In this document: one piece after another, positions 16,940 to 26,675 of the stretch
How positions within the stretch are numbered: the first letter of the stretch is position 1
Layout: the number at the start of each line of letters is the position of its first letter
From: Betaproteobacteria bacterium
GTDB taxonomy: Bacteria > Pseudomonadota > Gammaproteobacteria > Burkholderiales > Burkholderiaceae_D
Direction of reading: 5' to 3'
Assembly (NCBI GenBank): GCA_025362735.1
Contig: JANYFL010000038.1
Location: forward strand, 62,001-126,000
DNA length: 64,000 nucleotides
Program-made: the position numbers and the translations under genes
The notes under the pieces: model-generated
The model's database searches: none
What the model saw: the letters and a program-made list of their open reading frames with translations, nothing else
Told to the model about the DNA's origin: nothing

Positions 16940-16942
16940 AAA

Positions 16943-17018
16943 ATCTTTCGACGCAGAGGCGCGGAGAACGCAGAGAAAACTTGAATCTTTACTCTGTGCC
17001 TCTGTGTTGAGAGGTTTA
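16943..17018. repeat. Palindromic intergenic repeat, CAGAGGCGCAGAG family, copy 2
   Basis: The left arm TTTCGACGCAGAGGCGCGGA and right arm CTCTGTGCCTCTGTGTTGAG form an imperfect inverted repeat that exactly fills the gap between the DUF971 gene and the converging MerR-family gene. It is related to the copies at 381-459 and 55923-56035, and shares the terminal TGTGTTGAGAGGTTT with the latter. Confidence 0.7.
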
Positions 17019-17019
17019 T

Positions 17020-17961
17020 TTAATTCAAAACGCCAGCGCGCTGCCGCCAGTAAGCCAGGGCCGTGCGAATGTCATGCAGTGTGGCGATTACCAGGACCCC
17101 GGTCAGAGATTTGCGACGCAGTGCAGAGTGGTTGCCTCCGGCCCAGATTTCGACGTTATCAGGCAATTTCATCCGCAATTCACGTAGGCCGTGAATGACC
17201 TGATTGTTGTTCATGATTGATGAGAAAGACAAGGCCACGATGTCGGCCCGTTGAGAGCGGACTGCGTGAACAATGTCGATAATCGGCGTTTGCACACCCA
17301 GCGATACGCAGCTGCAACCATCCAATGCGAACAGCGCTTCGGCCATCAAGATACCGAGACCATGCTGTTCTTGCGGGAAGGTGGTCAGCAGTACACGCGG
17401 TTGCGACTTGGGAGCGGAAATAGCATTGATGGCATTGCGCAAAATAATCTGCAGCGATTCGGTATAGAGATGCTCTTCAAAGATTTCCAGGCCCCCACAG
17501 GACCAAGCCTCTCCGACCAGCGTATTGAGCGGGGCAATGATCTCGGTAACAAAATGAGCCAGTCCGTGCTTCAGAAAATTCTGGGAAAGCGAGTGGCGCA
17601 ACTCTTCAATGCGGTGATTCTTGATGAGGTTGATATAGGTTAAAAGTAATGGATCCGCTTCCTTGGCTGCGGCATTGGGGCCGCGCATGCGAATGCCATT
17701 CAGGACATTCAAAAGATTTTCGGCGCTTTGGTTGATAATTTTGCTCGGCCGATGTCCATGATCAAGCAGGCGTTTCAGAAGGCGCAGTTTGTCGACTTGC
17801 TCTTGTGGATAAAGTCGTTCTCCGAACTGGTCACGTTCCGGCATCGGAAAGCCATAACGCCGCTCCCAGACCCGTAACGTATCCTTGGGCAGGCCGGTAT
17901 CCCGCTCAACCGCAGCGATAGTTACAGACTGTAGCATCTGATTAGGAACATTCATTGGCAT
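17020..17961 (-). CDS. MerR-family regulator with B12-binding-type domain (CarH/LitR-like)
   Basis: A 313-residue regulator. The N-terminal MerR helix-turn-helix (about residues 12-80) has TLRVWERRYGFP. The C-terminal half matches the four-helix plus Rossmann light-sensing module of CarH/LitR. It keeps W153-x9-E163-H164 (WSCGGLEIFEEH) and an E-x-H-x-x-G loop with H200 (EQHGLG), the positions that contact and ligate adenosylcobalamin in CarH. In that family B12-bound tetramers repress in the dark and fall apart in light; such behaviour here is inferred. It is divergent from the glutathione peroxidase gene and close to a lipid-modification cluster. No clear ribosome site precedes the first ATG; M3 or M9 are alternative starts. 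Confidence 0.85.
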   Translation of the reverse strand: MPMNVPNQMLQSVTIAAVERDTGLPKDTLRVWERRYGFPMPERDQFGERLYPQEQVDKLRLLKRLLDHGHRPSKIINQSAENLLNVLNGIRMRGPNAAAKEADPLLLTYINLIKNHRIEELRHSLSQNFLKHGLAHFVTEIIAPLNTLVGEAWSCGGLEIFEEHLYTESLQIILRNAINAISAPKSQPRVLLTTFPQEQHGLGILMAEALFALDGCSCVSLGVQTPIIDIVHAVRSQRADIVALSFSSIMNNNQVIHGLRELRMKLPDNVEIWAGGNHSALRRKSLTGVLVIATLHDIRTALAYWRQRAGVLN

Positions 17962-17965
17962 TCGG

Positions 17966-18034
17966 ATTATTTGCTGTTAACCTTTATTTGTCCAGGACAA
18001 ACTTGTTGACGAAACCAGAGTACACCGATATTGT
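17966..18034. promoter_or_regulatory. Divergent promoters around a perfect 15-bp palindrome
   Basis: A palindrome TTTGTCCAGGACAAA lies at 17987-18001. Rightward, TTGACG (18006-18011) and TATTGT (18029-18034) with a 17-bp spacer face the glutathione peroxidase gene. Leftward, TGGACA (17994-17989) and AATAAT (17971-17966), also 17 bp apart, face the MerR-like gene, with the palindrome over the -35. The leftward start would be nearly leaderless. It is a candidate operator for the MerR-like protein; no binding data. Confidence 0.5.
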
Positions 18035-18199
18035 GATCAAAAGCGATCTCTGTCACTAGGACGACTATCTGGGTTGTGTTGCTGAAAAGAGTCACTCAAC
18101 GGCCTGATTGCCTTAAATATTTGGAATGCCGATGGGTTGGTGTGAGTGAATTATGCCGGACAATCATTAAATTGAGTCCGTTTATTGTCAGAGGCCCGA

Positions 18200-18838
18200 A
18201 TGAAGCACAACTTGGTTATGAGGCGTTTTCAGATGAAAAGCTTGATGAATTGGATGGTCGCGGCAATATTGTCGGTGGCCGGTGTTTTATGCGCGTTTCA
18301 GGCTCAGGGACAGCCGGTACCGATGAAAGTCGCAGATGCTGCCGTGTCAGCAGCAAAATGCCCGGATTTACTGAATCGCCATTTCAACAAATTGCAGGAT
18401 GAGTCCGATCAGTCCCTCTGTCAGTACAGCGGCAAAGTGATTTTGATTGTCAACACCGCCAGTTATTGCGGCTTCACCAGCCAATATGAAGGCTTGGAAA
18501 AGCTGTACGCAAAATATGCGGACAAAGGCCTGGTCGTGTTGGGTTTCCCCTCCAATGATTTTTCTCAAGAGCCTGGTAGTAACAAGGACATTGCCGACTT
18601 TTGCTACAACACCTATGGCGTCAAGTTTCCGATGTTTTCCAAGTCTTCGGTGGTCGGCAAAGAGGCCAACCCGCTATATGTCGAGCTGGCAAAACAAACC
18701 GGAAAGAAACCGGGCTGGAATTTTTACAAGTATCTGATTGATCGCAATGGCAAGCCAGTGGCTAGTTTTGGGTCTATTGTTTCCCCGACAGATAGCAGTT
18801 TTATCAGCGAAGTGGAACGCTTGCTAGCCAGCAAGTAG
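18200..18838 (+). CDS. Exported glutathione peroxidase family protein
   Basis: A thiol peroxidase reducing hydrogen or lipid peroxides. The catalytic segment is NTASYCGFTSQYEGLE with a Cys (C90) where some family members have selenocysteine. GFPSNDFSQEPG supplies the conserved Gln-type region and GWNFYKYLID the Trp. Unlike most bacterial copies it has an N-terminal hydrophobic segment (MNWMVAAILSVAGVLCAF, about 15-33) ending in AQGQP, so it is probably periplasmic. The start at ATG 18200 follows AGAGG by five bases; ATG 18233 is an alternative. It is divergent from the CarH-like regulator and behind a good promoter. Confidence 0.85.
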   Translation: MKHNLVMRRFQMKSLMNWMVAAILSVAGVLCAFQAQGQPVPMKVADAAVSAAKCPDLLNRHFNKLQDESDQSLCQYSGKVILIVNTASYCGFTSQYEGLEKLYAKYADKGLVVLGFPSNDFSQEPGSNKDIADFCYNTYGVKFPMFSKSSVVGKEANPLYVELAKQTGKKPGWNFYKYLIDRNGKPVASFGSIVSPTDSSFISEVERLLASK

Positions 18839-18958: not shown

Positions 18959-19771
18959 ATGAACGCCCCTGAAAAAATCTTCCTGCCAGACATTCAGTCC
19001 GTGGCAGATCGCCGCAATATCGCCATTCAACGTGTTGGTGTGAAGTCAGTTGTTTACCCTGTGCGGGTAGTCACAGCATCCGGTCAGGCTCAGCCCTCGG
19101 TGGCCCATTTCGACATGTATGTCGGTCTGGCACATGACGTCAAGGGTACGCACATGTCGCGGTTTCTGGAAATCCTCGAGCGTGATTTGGGTGGAGAACA
19201 AGCGCTGTCTTACTCAACTCTGAAGTCCATGATGCGCGACATGCTGGAGCGACTGGATGCGCAGCGCGGCGATATTGAAATTCGTTTCCCATATTTCATC
19301 CGCAAGAAAGCGCCAGTATCGGGCGTCGAAAGCCTGATGGATTATGAAGTGACATTGAAAGCCGAATCCCGCAATGGTGTGACCAGGTTCGTACAGAAAG
19401 TCCTGGTGCCGGTGACCAGTCTCTGCCCCTGCTCGAAGAATATTTCTGAATACGGTGCGCACAATCAGCGTTCTCACGTCACGATTGCGGCCGAAATCGA
19501 GGCTGACATGGCTATAGAAGAACTCGTGGCTGTTGCGGAGACTGCTGCTTCTTGCGAACTCTATGGTTTGCTCAAGCGCCCGGATGAAAAATACGTCACT
19601 GAACGCGCCTACGACAACCCCAAGTTTGTCGAAGACCTGGTGCGTGATATTGCTTTGGCCTTGAATGAAGACATTCGGGTGCTTGCCTATACCGTGGAAT
19701 CGGAGAACTTTGAATCCATCCACAACCACTCAGCTTACGCCTTGATTGAGCACGACAAACGGCAGGATTAA
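18959..19771 (+). CDS. folE2: GTP cyclohydrolase FolE2 (type IB)
   Basis: Converts GTP to 7,8-dihydroneopterin triphosphate, the entry to folate and other pterins. The 270-residue protein has [19 protein letters not shown] with the catalytic/metal Cys at 156 or 158 and His168, and KGTHMSRF near residue 62; these mark the FolE2/COG1469 type, which works with several divalent metals and can replace zinc-dependent FolE. AAGGAC precedes the ATG. No other folate genes are nearby. Its place beside a photo-oxidative type cluster, where folE genes are light-induced in Pseudomonas putida, may be meaningful. Confidence 0.93.
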
Positions 19772-19776
19772 ACCAC

Positions 19777-19868
19777 TGTCATTCTGAGTGCAGCGAAGAA
19801 TCTCAGGTCATTCTTGACCGTCGGCAATGCATAACCACCTGAGATCCTTCGCTACGCTCAGGATGACA
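19777..19868. repeat. GTCATTCTGAGxGCAGCGAAGAATCT-family inverted repeat
   Basis: GTCATTCTGAGTGCAGCGAA with GAATCTCAGGT forms the left arm. ACCTGAGATCCTTCGCTACG with CTCAGGATGAC forms the right arm, about 32 bp apart. This motif recurs in intergenic DNA of many bacteria. It separates folE2 from the flavin oxidoreductase gene and could end or stabilise the folE2 message. Confidence 0.7.
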
Positions 19869-19932
19869 AGAATGAATCCAAACGGGCAAAGACTCCGTAC
19901 AAGAAAGGTCATATTCACTAACGGGAGATGAA

Positions 19933-21267
19933 TTGAAGATCGCGGTCGTCGGTGCCGGAATTTCCGGACTGTCCTGTGCCTGGCAACTGGCTCGTTCAGG
20001 CCGGCATGAGGTCGTGCTGTACGAAGCCAACGATTATTTCGGCGGGCACACGCACACCGTCGACATCAAGGTGGACGGCATTCGCCATCCGGTCGATACC
20101 GGTTTTCTGGTCTTCAACCATCGCACTTATCCAAATCTGGTGCAGCTCTTCGATCACCTCGGCGTCAAAACCGCCAAATCGGACATGTCGTTCTCAGTCA
20201 TGCTGAAGCAACAGGACAAGAACGGACGCTCTACAACCGACCTTGAATGGGCTGGCCACGATCTGAATGCAGTGTTTGCCCAGCGTCGCAATCTGGTCAA
20301 TCCTCGTTTTTTGCGCATGTTGCTGGACATTCTGCGCTTCAATAGGCTGGCGACGGATCTGGCCAAACAGGGCGAAGCGGTGAGCGCCAATACGACCGTT
20401 GGTGCATTTCTGGACGAACATCGGTTTTCACAGACCTTCCGCGATTGGTACCTGCTGCCGATGGCGGCTGCGATCTGGTCGTGCTCGACTGAACAGATGC
20501 AGGCTTTCCCGATGGCGATTTTCATCCGCTTTTGTCACAACCACGGCTTGCTGCAAGTCAACGACCGGCCTCAGTGGTATAGCGTGGTCGGCGGCGGACG
20601 TGAATATGTCAGTAAGCTGCTGATGGATATTCCAGATGTACGCCGTTCCGAATCGGCGCAGTCCGTAAAGCGCACGGCCAGTGGTCAAGTCAATGTCCAT
20701 TCCCACTCGGGTACGCAGACCTATGATCAGGTTGTGTTGGCCTGCCATAGCGATGAATCGCTGGCCCTGCTCGGCGATGCGACCCAGCTTGAACGCGAAC
20801 TGCTCGGCGCCATTCGCTATCAGCCGAATCACGCCATTCTGCATACCGATGCTAGCGTGTTACCCCGCCGCAGCTTGGCGCATGCGGCCTGGAATTATCA
20901 GTGCAGCATCGACCAGACGCGCCCGAATCAGCGTGCCGTCTGTGTTCACTATCTGATTAATCGTCTGCAGCAGGTGCCGTTCCAGCGCCCGGTCGTGGTT
21001 TCGCTGAATGCCTTCGATCGTCCTGCTCCAGCCAGCATCTTGGGTGAGTTCGATTACGCCCATCCGGTGTTTGACGGCCCAGCCATCGCGGCCCAGCAGC
21101 GTTTACCCGAACTGCAGGGTCGCAACAACACCTGGTTTTGCGGCGCCTGGACTGGTTATGGTTTTCATGAAGACGGTCTTAAGTCGGGTCTTGGGATTGC
21201 GTCAGCTATTCAGAAAAAACTCGAGAGCCTGACCGAACCCGGTTCGCCCTCTCTCCACCTTGCCTGA
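19933..21267 (+). CDS. FAD-dependent amine-oxidase-like oxidoreductase of the Cfa-linked cluster
   Basis: A 444-residue flavoprotein. The N-terminal Rossmann motif VVGAGISGLSCAWQLA is followed by YEANDYFGGHTHTVD, and the C-terminal flavin contact is WFCGAWTGYGFHEDGLKSG. Relatives sit next to Cfa-like methyltransferases; in Rhodobacter sphaeroides a related operon makes methylated and furan fatty acids. It probably acts on lipid acyl chains, which is inferred. The start is TTG 19933: GGGAG lies six bases upstream and the nearby ATG at 19928 is out of frame. It opens a tightly spaced seven-gene run to 26675. Confidence 0.85.
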   Translation: MKIAVVGAGISGLSCAWQLARSGRHEVVLYEANDYFGGHTHTVDIKVDGIRHPVDTGFLVFNHRTYPNLVQLFDHLGVKTAKSDMSFSVMLKQQDKNGRSTTDLEWAGHDLNAVFAQRRNLVNPRFLRMLLDILRFNRLATDLAKQGEAVSANTTVGAFLDEHRFSQTFRDWYLLPMAAAIWSCSTEQMQAFPMAIFIRFCHNHGLLQVNDRPQWYSVVGGGREYVSKLLMDIPDVRRSESAQSVKRTASGQVNVHSHSGTQTYDQVVLACHSDESLALLGDATQLERELLGAIRYQPNHAILHTDASVLPRRSLAHAAWNYQCSIDQTRPNQRAVCVHYLINRLQQVPFQRPVVVSLNAFDRPAPASILGEFDYAHPVFDGPAIAAQQRLPELQGRNNTWFCGAWTGYGFHEDGLKSGLGIASAIQKKLESLTEPGSPSLHLA

Positions 21268-21276
21268 GCGTTTGCA

Positions 21277-22086
21277 ATGTCAGTCATCCACTTGAACCCG
21301 GACACAGAAAGCCGCGCCTTGATTGGTTTTGGTGAGGTGCGTCATACGCGCTTGCGTCCGGCTCGTAACGCCTTTCGTTACCCCGCGTATTTTTTGCGTT
21401 TACCCGTGCGACAACTTGATGTCGCGCTGAGCAGCCAGCGCTGGCTTTCGCATAATCGCTGGAATCTGTTCAGCTTTTATGACCGTGATCACGGTGATCA
21501 AGATGCCAGTAGACCGATCCAATCTCCGCTGCAGTGGATCGAAGAGGTTTTGCAACGTGAAGGCATTACCAATGCAACTGGCCCGATCTGGCTGCAAGCT
21601 TTTCCACGTGTGCTGGGCTATGTCTTCAATCCCGTCAGCTTCTGGTTCTGTCATCGTGCCGATGGCGCCTTACGAGCGATTGTGTGTGAGGTCCGTAATA
21701 CCTTTGGCGAAAAGCATTGCTATCTACTCGATCAGGATGACAGCACGCCGCTGAAGTGGGGTACGGAGCTGACGACACGCAAGGTCTTTCATGTTTCCCC
21801 GTTCTGCAAGATCGAAGGTACATATCGCTTTCGTTTTCTGGATGCAAAAGATCGTACCGTCGCACGTATCGATTACGACGATGCGCAGGGGCCATTGTTA
21901 TTGACCAGCGTTGGCGGTGAACTCGAAGCGCTGACTGATCGCGCATTGTTGCGTGCTTTTTTCCGTTTTCCTTTGTTCACCTTCGGCGTGATTGGCCGCA
22001 TTCACTGGCAGGCGCTGAAGCTCTGGATCAAACGTATTCCTTTCATTTCCAAACCCAAACCACCCGTTGCTGCGGTAACACGTTGA
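21277..22086 (+). CDS. DUF1365-domain protein
   Basis: A 269-residue protein with the DUF1365 pattern GEVRHTRLRPARNAFRYPAY near the start, PRVLGYVFNPVSFWFCH in the centre and VSPFCKIEGTYRFRF later. Function is unknown, but the family is almost always found between an FAD oxidoreductase and a Cfa-like methyltransferase, as here. It starts 10 bp after the oxidoreductase stop and ends 10 bp before the methyltransferase start, so the genes form one operon. There is no signal peptide. Confidence 0.88.
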   Translation: MSVIHLNPDTESRALIGFGEVRHTRLRPARNAFRYPAYFLRLPVRQLDVALSSQRWLSHNRWNLFSFYDRDHGDQDASRPIQSPLQWIEEVLQREGITNATGPIWLQAFPRVLGYVFNPVSFWFCHRADGALRAIVCEVRNTFGEKHCYLLDQDDSTPLKWGTELTTRKVFHVSPFCKIEGTYRFRFLDAKDRTVARIDYDDAQGPLLLTSVGGELEALTDRALLRAFFRFPLFTFGVIGRIHWQALKLWIKRIPFISKPKPPVAAVTR

Positions 22087-22095
22087 GGCCCTGCG

Positions 22096-23385
22096 ATGAA
22101 TCACGAACAGACATTTTCCAACCCCGGTTTTGAAAGCAACAAGCTTTGCACCGATGGCTTTCCTGCTTCGGCGCGCTTCATCATCAAGTTGCTTGAGCGC
22201 ATGACCGAAGGCTCACTAACGGTCAGCTTTCCTGATTGTGGCAAAGGCAGCAGTAGCGCCCGCTTTGGCAGTGCTGAGCCGCATGGTGAAATTGTTCTAC
22301 ACAACTGGAACGTTTGCGATGCTGCCTTGAAAACCGGTGACATTGGTTTCGGCGAAACTTATATCGCGGGCGATTGGACCACGCCTAATCTGGCAACGCT
22401 GATGCAGGTGATGGTGTCAAACCGCAATCAGATTGAGGCGGTCATCTATGGCAAGTGGTGGGGCAAGGTCTTGTATCGCATCAAGCATCTGCTCAACCGC
22501 AACACGCGCAAAGGCAGTCGCAAGAATATTCATGCGCACTACGACATCGGCAATGCCTTCTATACCGAATGGCTCGACCCAACGATGACTTATTCGAGCG
22601 CGCTCTATTCAAGTCCGGCCAGTCCGCTGGCACCAGACCTGGATGATGTGCAAAGCCTGTCCATTGCTCAAACCGCGAAATATCAGCGCATTCTCGATCA
22701 ACTGAAACTGCCCGCAGGATCAAAGGTATTGGAAATCGGTTTCGGTTGGGGCGGGTTCGCGGAACAGGCTGCACACAACGATTTGCATGTGATCGGACTA
22801 ACGCTTTCAACCGAGCAGATGCGTTACGCACAGGAGCGCCTTGCATCTGCTGGTCTGGCAGAGCAGGCGGATTTTAGTCTGCGTGATTACCGGGACATTG
22901 GGCAAAATTCCAATGGCCAGTTTGATGGCATTGTCTCGATCGAAATGTTCGAGGCCGTCGGCGAAGAATACTGGTCAGGCTATTTCGAGTGCCTGAAACG
23001 CAATCTCAAACCCGGCGGCAAGGCAGTGATTCAGACCATCACCATCGCCGAAGAATTATTTGACGACTATCGCGTCAGCAGTGATTTCATCCAGCAGTAC
23101 ATTTTTCCCGGCGGCATGCTGCCGACCCCATCGATCTTTCGTCAGCAAGCCGAGCGGGTCGGCCTGAAGGTGACCGACACCTTTGCTTTTGGTCAAGACT
23201 ATGCGCGCACTCTGCAGGCCTGGCTGCGCAGCTTCTATGCAAAGGAAAGAGAAATTCGCGCGCAGGGGTTTAATGTTGAGTTCATGCGTACCTGGGCTTT
23301 TTATCTGGCTTACTGCATCGCCGCTTTTCGCAATGCCAATACGGATGTGATTCAGTTCACGTTGGAGCATGAACATTCTGGCTAA
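22096..23385 (+). CDS. Cyclopropane-fatty-acyl-phospholipid synthase-family methyltransferase
   Basis: A 429-residue SAM-dependent lipid methyltransferase. VLEIGFGWGGFAEQAA is the SAM-binding loop (about residue 212). Upstream NIHAHYDIGNAFYTEWLDPT and MTYSSALY, and the FDGIVSIEMFEAVGEEYW segment, are Cfa-family active-site features. Cfa makes cyclopropane acyl chains; relatives in this operon type (UfaM-like) may methylate a double bond on the way to furan fatty acids. Which reaction applies cannot be told from sequence by eye. Its last codons overlap the possible start of the next gene. Confidence 0.9.
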   Translation: MNHEQTFSNPGFESNKLCTDGFPASARFIIKLLERMTEGSLTVSFPDCGKGSSSARFGSAEPHGEIVLHNWNVCDAALKTGDIGFGETYIAGDWTTPNLATLMQVMVSNRNQIEAVIYGKWWGKVLYRIKHLLNRNTRKGSRKNIHAHYDIGNAFYTEWLDPTMTYSSALYSSPASPLAPDLDDVQSLSIAQTAKYQRILDQLKLPAGSKVLEIGFGWGGFAEQAAHNDLHVIGLTLSTEQMRYAQERLASAGLAEQADFSLRDYRDIGQNSNGQFDGIVSIEMFEAVGEEYWSGYFECLKRNLKPGGKAVIQTITIAEELFDDYRVSSDFIQQYIFPGGMLPTPSIFRQQAERVGLKVTDTFAFGQDYARTLQAWLRSFYAKEREIRAQGFNVEFMRTWAFYLAYCIAAFRNANTDVIQFTLEHEHSG

Positions 23386-24010
23386 GAGGATTCAAGTGGC
23401 CCCTACCCTCCCCCTCCTCCAGAGGGGGAGGGAACTAAAACTCCTTCCCCCTCTGGGGGAAGGTTGGGATGGGGACATATTACGAAGACTGGTTTTATTA
23501 ATGCTGATGAGCATCATCTCGCTGCAAACCTATGCCGTTGAGGTCCCGCATCACATCGCCGAAGCCATCCCCAATGCCCGCCTTTCCGGTGGCGGTCCCT
23601 TCCGTTATTTCGGTTTTCACATTTACGATGCTCAGCTGTGGGTCGGCGATGAGGGTTACAAACCCGATGCTCCATTTGCCATCGACCTGAACTATGCCCG
23701 CAATTTCGATGGTGAAGAGATTGCCAAGACCAGCCGCGAAGAAATGGAACGAATGCAATACGGCACAGCTGTTCAGCAAGAGCAGTGGTTCGGGCAGATG
23801 AAAGCTATTTTCCCCGACGTCAAAAAAGGCCAGCACATCACCGGTGTCTTCACTGCTCAAGGCGTGCATTTTTTCTTCAACGGTAAAGCGATTGGTGAAG
23901 TGAGGAATGCCGCTTTCTCGAAGGCCTTTGCCGCGATCTGGATGGACCCGCGTACCAAGGCAAACAAAGTGCGTGAGCAAATGCTGACGGGTGCAAACCC
24001 GGTTCATTGA
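23369..24010 (+). CDS. Chalcone-isomerase-like exported protein
   Basis: The mature domain has PNARLSGGGPFRYFGFHIYDAQ in two parts, then KTSREEMERMQYG and VFTAQGVHFFFNG, as in the bacterial chalcone isomerase-like family, whose members bind fatty acids or related lipids. A hydrophobic signal segment LRRLVLLMLMSIISLQTYA lies at about residues 38-56. From the ATG at 23369 (behind GGAG, overlapping the methyltransferase end) the first 36 residues are a translated palindromic repeat. ATG 23501 is the alternative but would cut into the signal peptide's basic end. The start is therefore unsure; the domain is not. Confidence 0.75.
   Translation: MNILAKRIQVAPTLPLLQRGRELKLLPPLGEGWDGDILRRLVLLMLMSIISLQTYAVEVPHHIAEAIPNARLSGGGPFRYFGFHIYDAQLWVGDEGYKPDAPFAIDLNYARNFDGEEIAKTSREEMERMQYGTAVQQEQWFGQMKAIFPDVKKGQHITGVFTAQGVHFFFNGKAIGEVRNAAFSKAFAAIWMDPRTKANKVREQMLTGANPVH
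23401..23475. repeat. CCCCTACCCTCCCCCTC-family palindromic repeat
   Basis: CCCTACCCTCCCCCTCCTCC and AGAGGGGGAGGG form the left self-complementary arm. CTCCTTCCCCCTCTGGGGGA with AGGTTGGGATGGGG forms the right arm. It lies between the Cfa-like stop and the signal peptide of the chalcone-isomerase-like gene and is open in that gene's frame. It resembles, but is distinct from, the CCCTCTCCC family. Confidence 0.75.
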
Positions 24011-24011
24011 C

Positions 24012-25343
24012 ATGACAACCCAAGCGGTGGCCAGCACAAATCTGGGCACGAATACACATCTGAGTCTTGGCCCTTTGATCTGCTACGGCGCATTTGGTTT
24101 TCCGCTGGCCCTGGTTGCACTGCCGATTTATGTCTATGTCGCCAAGTTCTATAGCGATCAATTTGGTCTTTCCTTGACGCTGATCGGCACGATCCTGCTC
24201 GCGACGCGTTTGCTCGATACGTTCACTGATCCTCTACTGGGTTGGTGGGTGGATCGCAGCCGCCTTGCTTCAACCGAACGCGGCAAGATAGCCGGATACC
24301 GTCGCTTCATTCTTTACGCTTTACCCCTGCTTGCACTCGGTTATCTTGCATTGTTTCATCCTCGGCTGATCGCGTCGGCATCAGGTATGGCATCAGTCTG
24401 GCTGGCCTTTTCTCTTGTCGTGGTCTATCTTGGTTTTTCGCTAGCGACGATCACCTATCAAGGCTGGGGCGCAGAACTGTCAACGGATCCGGTTGAACGC
24501 ACACGTATCACCGGCACGCGCGAAGGCTTGGGCTTGGTTGGCGTGATCATTGCTGCTGTCTTACCCGAGCAACTCGGCATGTCCGCATTAACGACGGTAT
24601 TTATCGTCAGCCTTTGTAGCTCGGCCTGGTTGTTACTAATACTGGCGCCGCATCCAGTAACAGCCATCGCAAGAAAACAATCAAGCGATATTTCTCTCGG
24701 CTTGCGAACCAGCCTGACCGCACCACTGGGCAATCCACGCTTTCGCATGCTGCTGTGGATTTTTCTGGCTAATGGGATCGCCAGTGCAATCCCCGCGAAC
24801 CTGATTCTTTTTTTCGTGCGCGATGTCCTGCAACTCGTGAATTCCGGTTTGTTCCTCGGCGCCTATTTCATCGCGGGCGCATGCTCGATTCCGCTCTGGA
24901 TTGCACTGGCAAAACGGCTCGGACTCGCACGTGCCTGGTTTGTTGGCATGCTCGCCAGCATCGCAGCCTTTGTCTGGGCTTACTGGTTGAGTGCAGGCGA
25001 CCAGACTGGATTTTTGATCATTTGTATTGTTTCCGGTTTTGCATTGGGTGCTGACTTAGCTTTACCTGCCGCGATTCTGGCGGGAGTCATTACCGCAGCC
25101 GGTCATCGTGGCAGCCGTGAAGGAGCCTATTTCGGTTTGTGGAGTTTTGCGACCAAGCTCAATCTTGCTTTGGCTGCAGGCATCAGTCTGCCTCTGTTGG
25201 GGCTGCTCGGTTACGTGCCACAAATGCCAAGCATCACAGGCGCGCATGCACTCTCAATTGCCTACGCGCTCGTACCTTGCGGACTCAAGCTGCTCGCTGT
25301 GGGGCTACTCTGGCGTTCGTCATTTTTCAAGGAGTCGATATGA
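24012..25343 (+). CDS. MFS/GPH-type transporter
   Basis: A 443-residue integral membrane protein with about 12 hydrophobic segments. FTDPLLGWWVDRSR after the second segment is the signature loop of the GPH (glycoside-pentoside-hexuronide:cation symporter) branch of the major facilitator superfamily. In Cfa/DUF1365 operons this protein is unlikely to be a sugar carrier; a lipid or fatty-acid role is an inference. The start chosen is ATG 24012, two bases after the previous stop; the frame could open at 23991. Its stop overlaps the next start (ATGA). Confidence 0.85.
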   Translation: MTTQAVASTNLGTNTHLSLGPLICYGAFGFPLALVALPIYVYVAKFYSDQFGLSLTLIGTILLATRLLDTFTDPLLGWWVDRSRLASTERGKIAGYRRFILYALPLLALGYLALFHPRLIASASGMASVWLAFSLVVVYLGFSLATITYQGWGAELSTDPVERTRITGTREGLGLVGVIIAAVLPEQLGMSALTTVFIVSLCSSAWLLLILAPHPVTAIARKQSSDISLGLRTSLTAPLGNPRFRMLLWIFLANGIASAIPANLILFFVRDVLQLVNSGLFLGAYFIAGACSIPLWIALAKRLGLARAWFVGMLASIAAFVWAYWLSAGDQTGFLIICIVSGFALGADLALPAAILAGVITAAGHRGSREGAYFGLWSFATKLNLALAAGISLPLLGLLGYVPQMPSITGAHALSIAYALVPCGLKLLAVGLLWRSSFFKESI

Positions 25344-25888
25344 ACAGGTTGCTGCGCTGGAAAACGCTCGTGTTATCGGTGTTACTGATTCTGAGTGCTT
25401 GCGCTTCCATTGAACCCACGGCTTACAAAAATGAAAAGCCGGTGCTCGATCTCAAGACTTATTTCAACGGAACACTGGATGCCCGGGGTATGTTCCAGAA
25501 TCGCTCTGGAGAGGTGGTCAAACGTTTCAAGGTGGTGATCGAATGCAAGTGGGCGGTTGTGAACGGTGTCGAGACCGGTACACTGGATGAAGACTTCACT
25601 TATTCAGACGGAACCAGACAGCGGCGGGTCTGGACGCTAAAGAAAGTGGCCCCTAACCGCTACATCGGCACCGCGCCGGATGTCGTGGGCGAAGCCATCG
25701 GCATTACGGCAGGCAATGCGCTGAACTGGAAATATACGCTTGCCTTGCCTCTGGGCGACAAGGTCTATAACGTGGATTTCAACGACTGGATGTATTTAAT
25801 GGATGACAAGGTCATGCTGAATCGTGCGGCAATGAGCAAGTTTGGTTTTCATGTCGGCGACGTGACACTCTCGTTTACCAAACGCTAG
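25340..25888 (+). CDS. DUF3833 lipoprotein
   Basis: A 182-residue protein with a type II signal peptide (lipobox LSAC, Cys about 22), so it is a lipoprotein. The body shows the DUF3833 pattern: LKTYFNGTLDARGMFQNRSG, DFTYSDGTRQRRVWTL, then YTLALPLGDKVYNVDFNDW and MYLMDD. The family is a lipocalin-like beta barrel by appearance, with no proven ligand. ATG 25340 overlaps the transporter stop by four bases and has GGAG upstream, so it is translationally coupled. Confidence 0.85.
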   Translation: MNRLLRWKTLVLSVLLILSACASIEPTAYKNEKPVLDLKTYFNGTLDARGMFQNRSGEVVKRFKVVIECKWAVVNGVETGTLDEDFTYSDGTRQRRVWTLKKVAPNRYIGTAPDVVGEAIGITAGNALNWKYTLALPLGDKVYNVDFNDWMYLMDDKVMLNRAAMSKFGFHVGDVTLSFTKR

Positions 25889-25901
25889 ATCAACACACCC
25901 T

Positions 25902-26675
25902 ATGTCCTTAAATCCACCTATTTCCGACTGGACCCGACAGCGCGTCTGGATCATCGGTGCTTCAACCGGCATCGGCGCAGAGACCGCGAAGTTGCTGCTG
26001 CAAAAGGGCGCGCACGTAGCGCTCTCAGCTCGCAATGCCACCGCCCTGAATGAAGTCGCAGGGGAAAATGCCAATGCGCTACTGGTTCCGCTCGATATCA
26101 CGCAACCGGATATGCTGGTCAATGCGCGTACCGCCATCGTTGCTGCATGGGGTGGTTATGATCAGGTGCTCATCGTTGCCGGGTCGTACACTGAAATGCG
26201 CGCTCAGGATTTCGATCTGGCTAAAGCCAAAGCCTTGCTGGAGATCAACTTGCATGGCGTGCTGAATACGCTGGCCGTGGTGCTGCCCGATCTGCAGAAG
26301 CAAAAAAGCGGAGGCATCGGGATTGTGGCTTCAGTTGCGGGCTACAGCGGCTTGCCCAAGGCGCTGATCTATGGCGCATCCAAGGCCGCGCTGATCAACC
26401 TCACCGAATCGCTCTATCTGGATCTGCATCCGCAAGGCATTGCAGTCTCATTGATTTGTCCGGGCTTTGTCGCCACGCCGCTGACGGCACACAACGATTT
26501 CAAAATGCCAGCGCTGATCAGTGCGGAAGAAGCGGCCCGTGATCTGGTACACGGGCTTGAGCGCGGAGACTTCGAGATTCATTTCCCGAAACGTTTTACG
26601 CGCGTGCTGAAATTTCTGCGGCTCTTGCCTTACAGTTTCTATTTCAAAGCGATTCATCGCGCGACCGGGCTTTGA
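25902..26675 (+). CDS. Short-chain dehydrogenase/reductase (SDR)
   Basis: A 257-residue NAD(P)-dependent oxidoreductase. The cofactor loop is IIGASTGIGAETAK (about residues 13-26) and the catalytic Tyr/Lys lie in YGASKAAL with the Ser-containing strand VASVAGYSG before it. PGFVATPLT follows. It closes the Cfa-linked run, 13 bp after the DUF3833 stop. Substrate is unknown; from context an oxidised lipid or aldehyde is plausible. Confidence 0.87.
   Translation: MSLNPPISDWTRQRVWIIGASTGIGAETAKLLLQKGAHVALSARNATALNEVAGENANALLVPLDITQPDMLVNARTAIVAAWGGYDQVLIVAGSYTEMRAQDFDLAKAKALLEINLHGVLNTLAVVLPDLQKQKSGGIGIVASVAGYSGLPKALIYGASKAALINLTESLYLDLHPQGIAVSLICPGFVATPLTAHNDFKMPALISAEEAARDLVHGLERGDFEIHFPKRFTRVLKFLRLLPYSFYFKAIHRATGL

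Follow-up and report, generated by a model that had tools for sequence, protein, structure and literature searches.

Operators of B12-dependent photoreceptors

CarH proteins (class I LitR) recognize operators made of tandem 11-bp nnnnTnnACAn repeats, and for M. xanthus CarA an early proposal of inverted repeats has since given way to a reading as direct repeats (PMC9304148). In Thermus CarH, His132 is needed for full disassembly, and the H132A variant leaves the tetramer mostly assembled in the light (PMC10442372). Class II LitR proteins carry only the four-helix half of the B12-binding domain, receive the light signal via a LOV protein and use the operator TGTACA-N12-TGTACA; the P. mendocina protein represses from sites located at the -35 element and downstream of the start (PMC9758184). 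The light-induced neighbours of the Pseudomonas regulators PplR/PmlR include genes for an FAD oxidoreductase, UfaM, a short-chain dehydrogenase (SDR) and folE (PMC9758184). Effectors of the ChrR-sigmaE systems of Rhodobacter and Shewanella comprise a periplasmic glutathione peroxidase, Cfa/UfaM, an SDR and a photolyase (PMC4336711, PMC7380195).

Here we analysed 64,000 nucleotides of a Betaproteobacteria bacterium genome (the window), in which a regulator gene and a divergent gene series share a control region with a perfect palindrome. This palindrome is very probably the operator of a B12-binding repressor of LitR/CarH type, autoregulatory and shared with the divergent operon, bound in the dark and released by light. 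As such it would be a new form of operator within a known family of light-sensing repressors, unlike the published operators of CarH and class II LitR. Our literature search, which covered subscription journals poorly so that prior work is possible, returned no published description of it.

Organization of the divergent control region

The 238-bp intergenic gap contains only one dyad with 7-bp arms, TTTGTCCAGGACAAA at 17987-18001, whose 7+7 arms match perfectly around a central A; the perfect palindrome of the preliminary description of this DNA is thus confirmed. It scores 26.0 bits with our matrix of the site. The 64 kb hold six dyads of this format (7+7, 1-nt spacer), so the palindrome is unremarkable as a bare dyad, and its significance comes from its conservation. 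The features of the region are as follows.

17020-17961, minus strand: LitR/CarH-type MerR and B12-binding regulator, start at 17961, 17955 or 17937 (profile, alignment, fold)
17966-17971, minus strand: putative regulator -10, AATAAT, 17-bp spacer (promoter consensus scan)
17987-18001, no strand: probable palindromic operator TTTGTCCAGGACAAA, proximal-type site, consensus TTTGTCYWRGACAAA (sequence and conservation)
17989-17994, minus strand: putative regulator -35, TGGACA, within the operator (promoter consensus scan; in relatives this geometry belongs to the distal site and is not kept at the proximal one)
18006-18011, plus strand: putative divergent-operon -35, TTGACG, 4 bp from the operator (promoter consensus scan)
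18029-18034, plus strand: putative divergent-operon -10, TATTGT, 17-bp spacer (promoter consensus scan)
18028-18056, minus strand: alternative regulator promoter, GTGACA (18056-18051), 17 bp, CAATAT (18033-18028) (read from the sequence, by analogy to relatives)
18049-18065, no strand: possible degenerate second operator, TCTGTC-ACTAG-GACGAC (read from the sequence)

The regulator is related to CarH

The regulator had earlier been read simply as MerR-like. A MerR_1 domain is indeed present (PF13411, 47.5 bits), but that reading did not recognise the B12-photoreceptor type of the protein, evident from a B12-binding domain (PF02310, 41.2 bits; both over their cut-offs). The PF02607 match, at 21.2 bits versus a cut-off of 23, falls just short. 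CarH is the best match both by profile and by fold: the structure model (pLDDT 88.8) gave 5c8e, 5c8d and 5c8a as top Foldseek matches, with TM values reaching 0.82 on the target, in the B12 domain. On the other hand, the NCBIfam CarH model (NF052513, equivalog) yields 127.5 bits versus a cut-off of 400. Judged by its sequence, the protein is thus a member of the same superfamily as CarH and not a CarH equivalog. Nor does the locus have the hallmarks of class II LitR, for the operator is not TGTACA-N12-TGTACA and the Rossmann half of the B12 domain is present by both profile and model.

The alignment of homologues shows W153, E163-H164 and E198-x-H200 as invariant; their counterparts in Thermus CarH are W131, E141-H142 and the region of H177. 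The W-x9-EH motif (adenosyl-contacting Trp, Glu-His) and the ExHxxG motif of the lower-ligand His are each found in 109 of 111 homologues, the window protein among them, and the genome encodes a cobalamin adenosyltransferase. The MerR helix-turn-helix (HTH), the two-part B12-binding domain, W-x9-EH and the lower-ligand His are thereby shared with CarH of Thermus thermophilus and Bacillus megaterium, as is an operator that overlaps or abuts the -35 element. The residue following the adenosyl-stacking Trp, equivalent to His132, is Ser in the window protein; of the 109 readable homologues, almost all have Ala, Met, Leu, Ser or Val there and only one has His. Without a His132 equivalent, bis-His ligation on illumination is impossible in the manner of CarH.

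This absence lends some weight to a reading in which the regulator does use the operator but senses another cue, such as redox state, the B12 level or a partner photoreceptor, the last by analogy with class II LitR and its LOV protein (PMC9758184). Conservation of the B12-photoreceptor residues Trp, Glu-His and lower-ligand His, which are the signature residues used in SignatureFinder (PMC11796333), speaks for direct light sensing instead, and we consider another cue unlikely, though it is the most serious of the alternatives.

The palindrome is conserved upstream of regulator homologues

Homologues were drawn from 60 relatives, from 80 named contigs (with few exceptions Burkholderiales or Betaproteobacteria) and from the class, and 111 upstream regions were subjected to an unbiased scan for every 5-mer dyad with gaps of 0-20, without prior choice. 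TTGTC-N3-GACAA ranked first, occurring in 64 of the 111 regions versus at most 4 in shuffles, and the runners-up were shifted or overlapping forms of the same dyad. Within 2 mismatches, TTTGTC-N3-GACAAA is found upstream of the regulator in 97 of the 111 regions. When near-identical regions were clustered, 86 of 100 non-redundant homologues had the site and 14 lacked it at this tolerance; the rest of the same loci contains 44 sites in 1.38 Mb, a background of about 0.011 per region. The centre of the site, which was not used for selection, is mostly Y-W-R, and its middle position is A or T in all 53 distinct best sites, never G or C. Genomes that had no part in the discovery behaved similarly: among 5 additional homologues within the same GTDB class, 4 have the site upstream; it was not found upstream of one out-of-class homologue with 31% identity. 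Conservation in relatives, fixed beforehand as a check on the palindrome, was therefore observed across the order and at the same place, which strongly supports, at the sequence level, the earlier suggestion of a shared, compact autoregulatory operator for the MerR-like regulator.

The site is also specifically linked to the regulator gene. Over the 10-kb flanks, only 4 strong matrix matches in all lie outside the region upstream of the regulator. The exact consensus TTTGTCYWRGACAAA is found in 6 of the 60 relative genomes, and all 6 are among the 20 that encode a clear regulator copy (E below 1e-40), with none in the other 40; the one-sided chance of such confinement, C(20,6)/C(60,6), is about 8e-4.

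In contrast to M. xanthus CarA, order-wide conservation here extends to the two arms of the inverted repeat, and the arrangement differs from the tandem direct repeats of CarH operators. Indeed, the longest tandem run of TnnACA in the window is a single unit, and runs of two occur in 6 of the 111 regions. A tandem operator of CarH type was rejected, since none of the 111 upstream regions has three tandem TnnACA units.

That known CarH operators are tandem and direct, not inverted, could be taken to mean that the palindrome is bound by another factor, for example an oxidative-stress regulator, which would control the same promoters while LitR binds elsewhere. Such a factor is hard to reconcile with an exact consensus restricted, among the 60 relatives, to regulator-bearing genomes, with strong sites in the 10-kb flanks lying almost exclusively in front of the regulator gene, and with a compact divergent layout typical of autoregulation. 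We regard this alternative as improbable and retain the LitR/CarH-type regulator as the protein that would bind the palindrome.

Relatives often carry two precisely spaced sites

The site is often a precisely spaced pair, recurring at the same place in many related bacteria. Two sites 62-64 bp apart are found in 58 of the 111 regions (50 of the 100 non-redundant ones), versus a mean of 2.5 regions and a maximum of 8 for other 3-bp spacing windows; this distance would correspond to about six turns of the DNA helix. The two sites of a pair enclose a -10 region used in both directions. The -35 element of the divergent operon (TTGAC) is 3 bp from the site in 33 of the 47 cases where it was found, and 4 bp in the window. 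At the 3-bp placement, the GACA of the -35 element and that of the palindrome are 11 bp apart, a distance equal to the repeat period of CarH. The regulator promoter of relatives has its -35 element inside the distal site, followed 17 bp on by TATAAT; a -10 with at least 5 of 6 matches stands at offset 30 from the distal site in 14 of the 58 paired regions, and nothing is enriched at offset 30 after the proximal site.

As a tentative idea, to which we give rather less than even chances, a dark-state tetramer of the regulator could hold the two inverted palindromes about six turns apart and clamp the overlapping promoters in a small loop that light can break. If true, the loop would represent an operator architecture of B12 photoreceptors distinct from the linear binding of CarH to tandem repeats, and one that needs no His132 ligand switch.

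Two further observations concern the sites of relatives. A good operator copy lies inside the regulator coding sequence at three loci (L163, L135 at +359 and L043 at +314, counted from the HTH start), where it falls in the variable linker after the HTH and is perhaps a downstream operator. Several Oxalobacteraceae (L096, L098, L072 and other Duganella/Pseudoduganella loci) keep the operator pair, and the peroxidase/fatty-acid operon is missing from their fetched flanks; the regulator may have a different target there.

Promoters and a possible second site in the window

The window has kept one perfect proximal site. The alleged overlap of the palindrome with the predicted regulator -35 (TGGACA, 17994-17989) is present, the predicted peroxidase -35 (TTGACG) does start 4 bp past the palindrome, and the promoter consensus scan gives 17-bp spacers for both promoters, all of which agrees with the preliminary description. 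Its further proposal of an almost leaderless regulator message fares less well. The promoter pair is present, but relatives have their conserved regulator -35 inside the distal site, and the window promoter thus uses its one site as relatives use the distal one. Only 3 of the 39 single-site regions, the window included, have a -10 with at least 5 of 6 matches at the regulator-promoter offset. Since the layout of relatives differs and so few single-site regions are comparable, the almost leaderless transcript is doubtful; the operator-embedded regulator promoter may be a local, compacted layout, or it may be a chance match and wrong. The alternative regulator promoter mirrors the layout conserved in relatives and has a weak -10 (3 of 6). 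No sequence resembling a Shine-Dalgarno precedes M1, M3 or M9, so the start codon is left at 17961, 17955 or 17937.

In the candidate second operator, the left half TCTGTC is located 62 bp from the first site, the expected distance, but by matrix score the candidate does not rise above noise. On this score we rejected a clear second site in the window; at most, a remnant of the distal site is left. No Rfam match to a riboswitch, cobalamin or other, was obtained in the window.

The promoter geometry also bears on whether the regulator could act like a classical MerR protein, as an activator untwisting a spacer of excess length. Apart from the MerR-type HTH, the locus offers little to such an activator: both predicted spacers are 17 bp and not 19-20 bp, the site is placed at the -35 element or beyond it, not between -35 and -10, and characterised LitR/CarH proteins repress (PMC9304148, PMC9758184). 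We consider activation very unlikely, and repression from the palindrome the better reading. A functionless chance dyad, conceivable given the six such dyads in 64 kb, is contradicted by the order-wide conservation at the same place and has a negligible probability.

The divergent operon and its possible regulon

The plus-strand genes, presumably co-transcribed, are listed below.

18200-18838, plus strand: glutathione peroxidase, possibly exported judging by a hydrophobic N-terminal segment (profile and sequence)
18959-19771, plus strand: FolE2, GTP cyclohydrolase IB (profile)
19933-21267, plus strand: FAD-dependent amine-oxidase-like oxidoreductase (profile)
21277-22086, plus strand: DUF1365 protein (profile)
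22096-23385, plus strand: CMAS-family fatty acid methyltransferase, Cfa/UfaM-like (profile)
23474-24010, plus strand: chalcone-isomerase-like protein (profile)
24015-25343, plus strand: MFS_2 transporter (profile)
25340-25888, plus strand: DUF3833 protein (profile)
25902-26675, plus strand: short-chain dehydrogenase, SDR (profile)

Most of the longer loci of relatives share the order regulator, (peroxidase), (folE2), FAD oxidoreductase, DUF1365, CMAS, chalcone isomerase, MFS, DUF3833 and SDR. This set would constitute a photoprotection operon. It differs from CarH targets, which are carotenoid genes, in comprising peroxidase, folE2 and fatty-acid genes. The neighbourhood resembles that of PplR/PmlR, with FAD oxidoreductase, UfaM-like, SDR and folE-type genes nearby and, in relatives, two operators, whereas the operator TTTGTC-N3-GACAAA and the retained Rossmann half set it apart. 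The effector set is also similar to the photo-oxidative regulon of ChrR-sigmaE, which nevertheless relies on an ECF sigma factor and an anti-sigma factor sensing singlet oxygen, not on a B12 repressor and an operator. For instance, the window peroxidase has an N-terminal hydrophobic segment like that of Shewanella PgpD, which is under RpoE2-ChrR control.

The preliminary description had singled out the regions upstream of 18959 and 19933 for further copies of the palindrome; none above background was found there, the best match (12.3 bits, at 19745) lying inside folE2, and no promoter toward 18959 or 19933 was detected. Elsewhere in the genome there are two other perfect copies of TTGTCCNGGACAA, both within coding genes (histidine-kinase-like and signal-peptidase (LepB)-like, as named by reading sequences and neighbours), so that the operator is the only intergenic site among the perfect copies. 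Matches with 1-2 mismatches number 185 versus 118 for the reversed control, little above background. A wider regulon in this genome was therefore rejected. In relatives, the exact site also occurs in front of an SDR gene that has a photolyase FAD-binding-domain gene behind it (L157:1893-2612), in front of an FAD oxidoreductase (L155:1577-2746) and in front of a small unknown protein (L151:1082-1489). The photolyase-linked target fits light control.

Two intergenic stretches resembling inverted repeats were also noticed, at 16940-17000 (cgacgcagaggcgcggagaacgcagag / ctctgtgcctctgtgttgagag) and at 19780-19870 (cattctgagtgcagcgaagaatctcagg / cctgagatccttcgctacgctcaggatgaca); both resemble dispersed intergenic repeats.

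Proposed mechanism and significance

In the dark, the adenosylcobalamin-loaded regulator would bind TTTGTC-N3-GACAAA, which flanks or covers the -35 element of each divergent promoter, and, acting as a repressor rather than an activator, would shut off its own gene together with the operon of peroxidase, folE2, FAD oxidoreductase, DUF1365 and CMAS. Light would break the Co-C bond, the regulator would leave the DNA and both transcripts would be induced, their products protecting membranes and pterin/folate metabolism against photo-oxidation. Where relatives would enclose the overlapping promoters between two sites 62-64 bp apart, the window would manage with its single perfect site. By analogy with characterised LitR/CarH proteins (PMC9304148, PMC9758184, PMC10442372), dark binding with adenosylcobalamin, promoter block and release by light are the likely mode of working.

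These data give a testable DNA motif, with a precise paired spacing, for a large uncharacterised group of B12-type photoreceptors in Burkholderiales. The route from light to DNA release can now be addressed in a subfamily that lacks His132 of Thermus CarH, and the system may offer a new green-light switch for synthetic biology. Many of the Burkholderiales bearing these photoreceptors come from freshwater and soil, and the motif predicts which of their genes are switched on by light.
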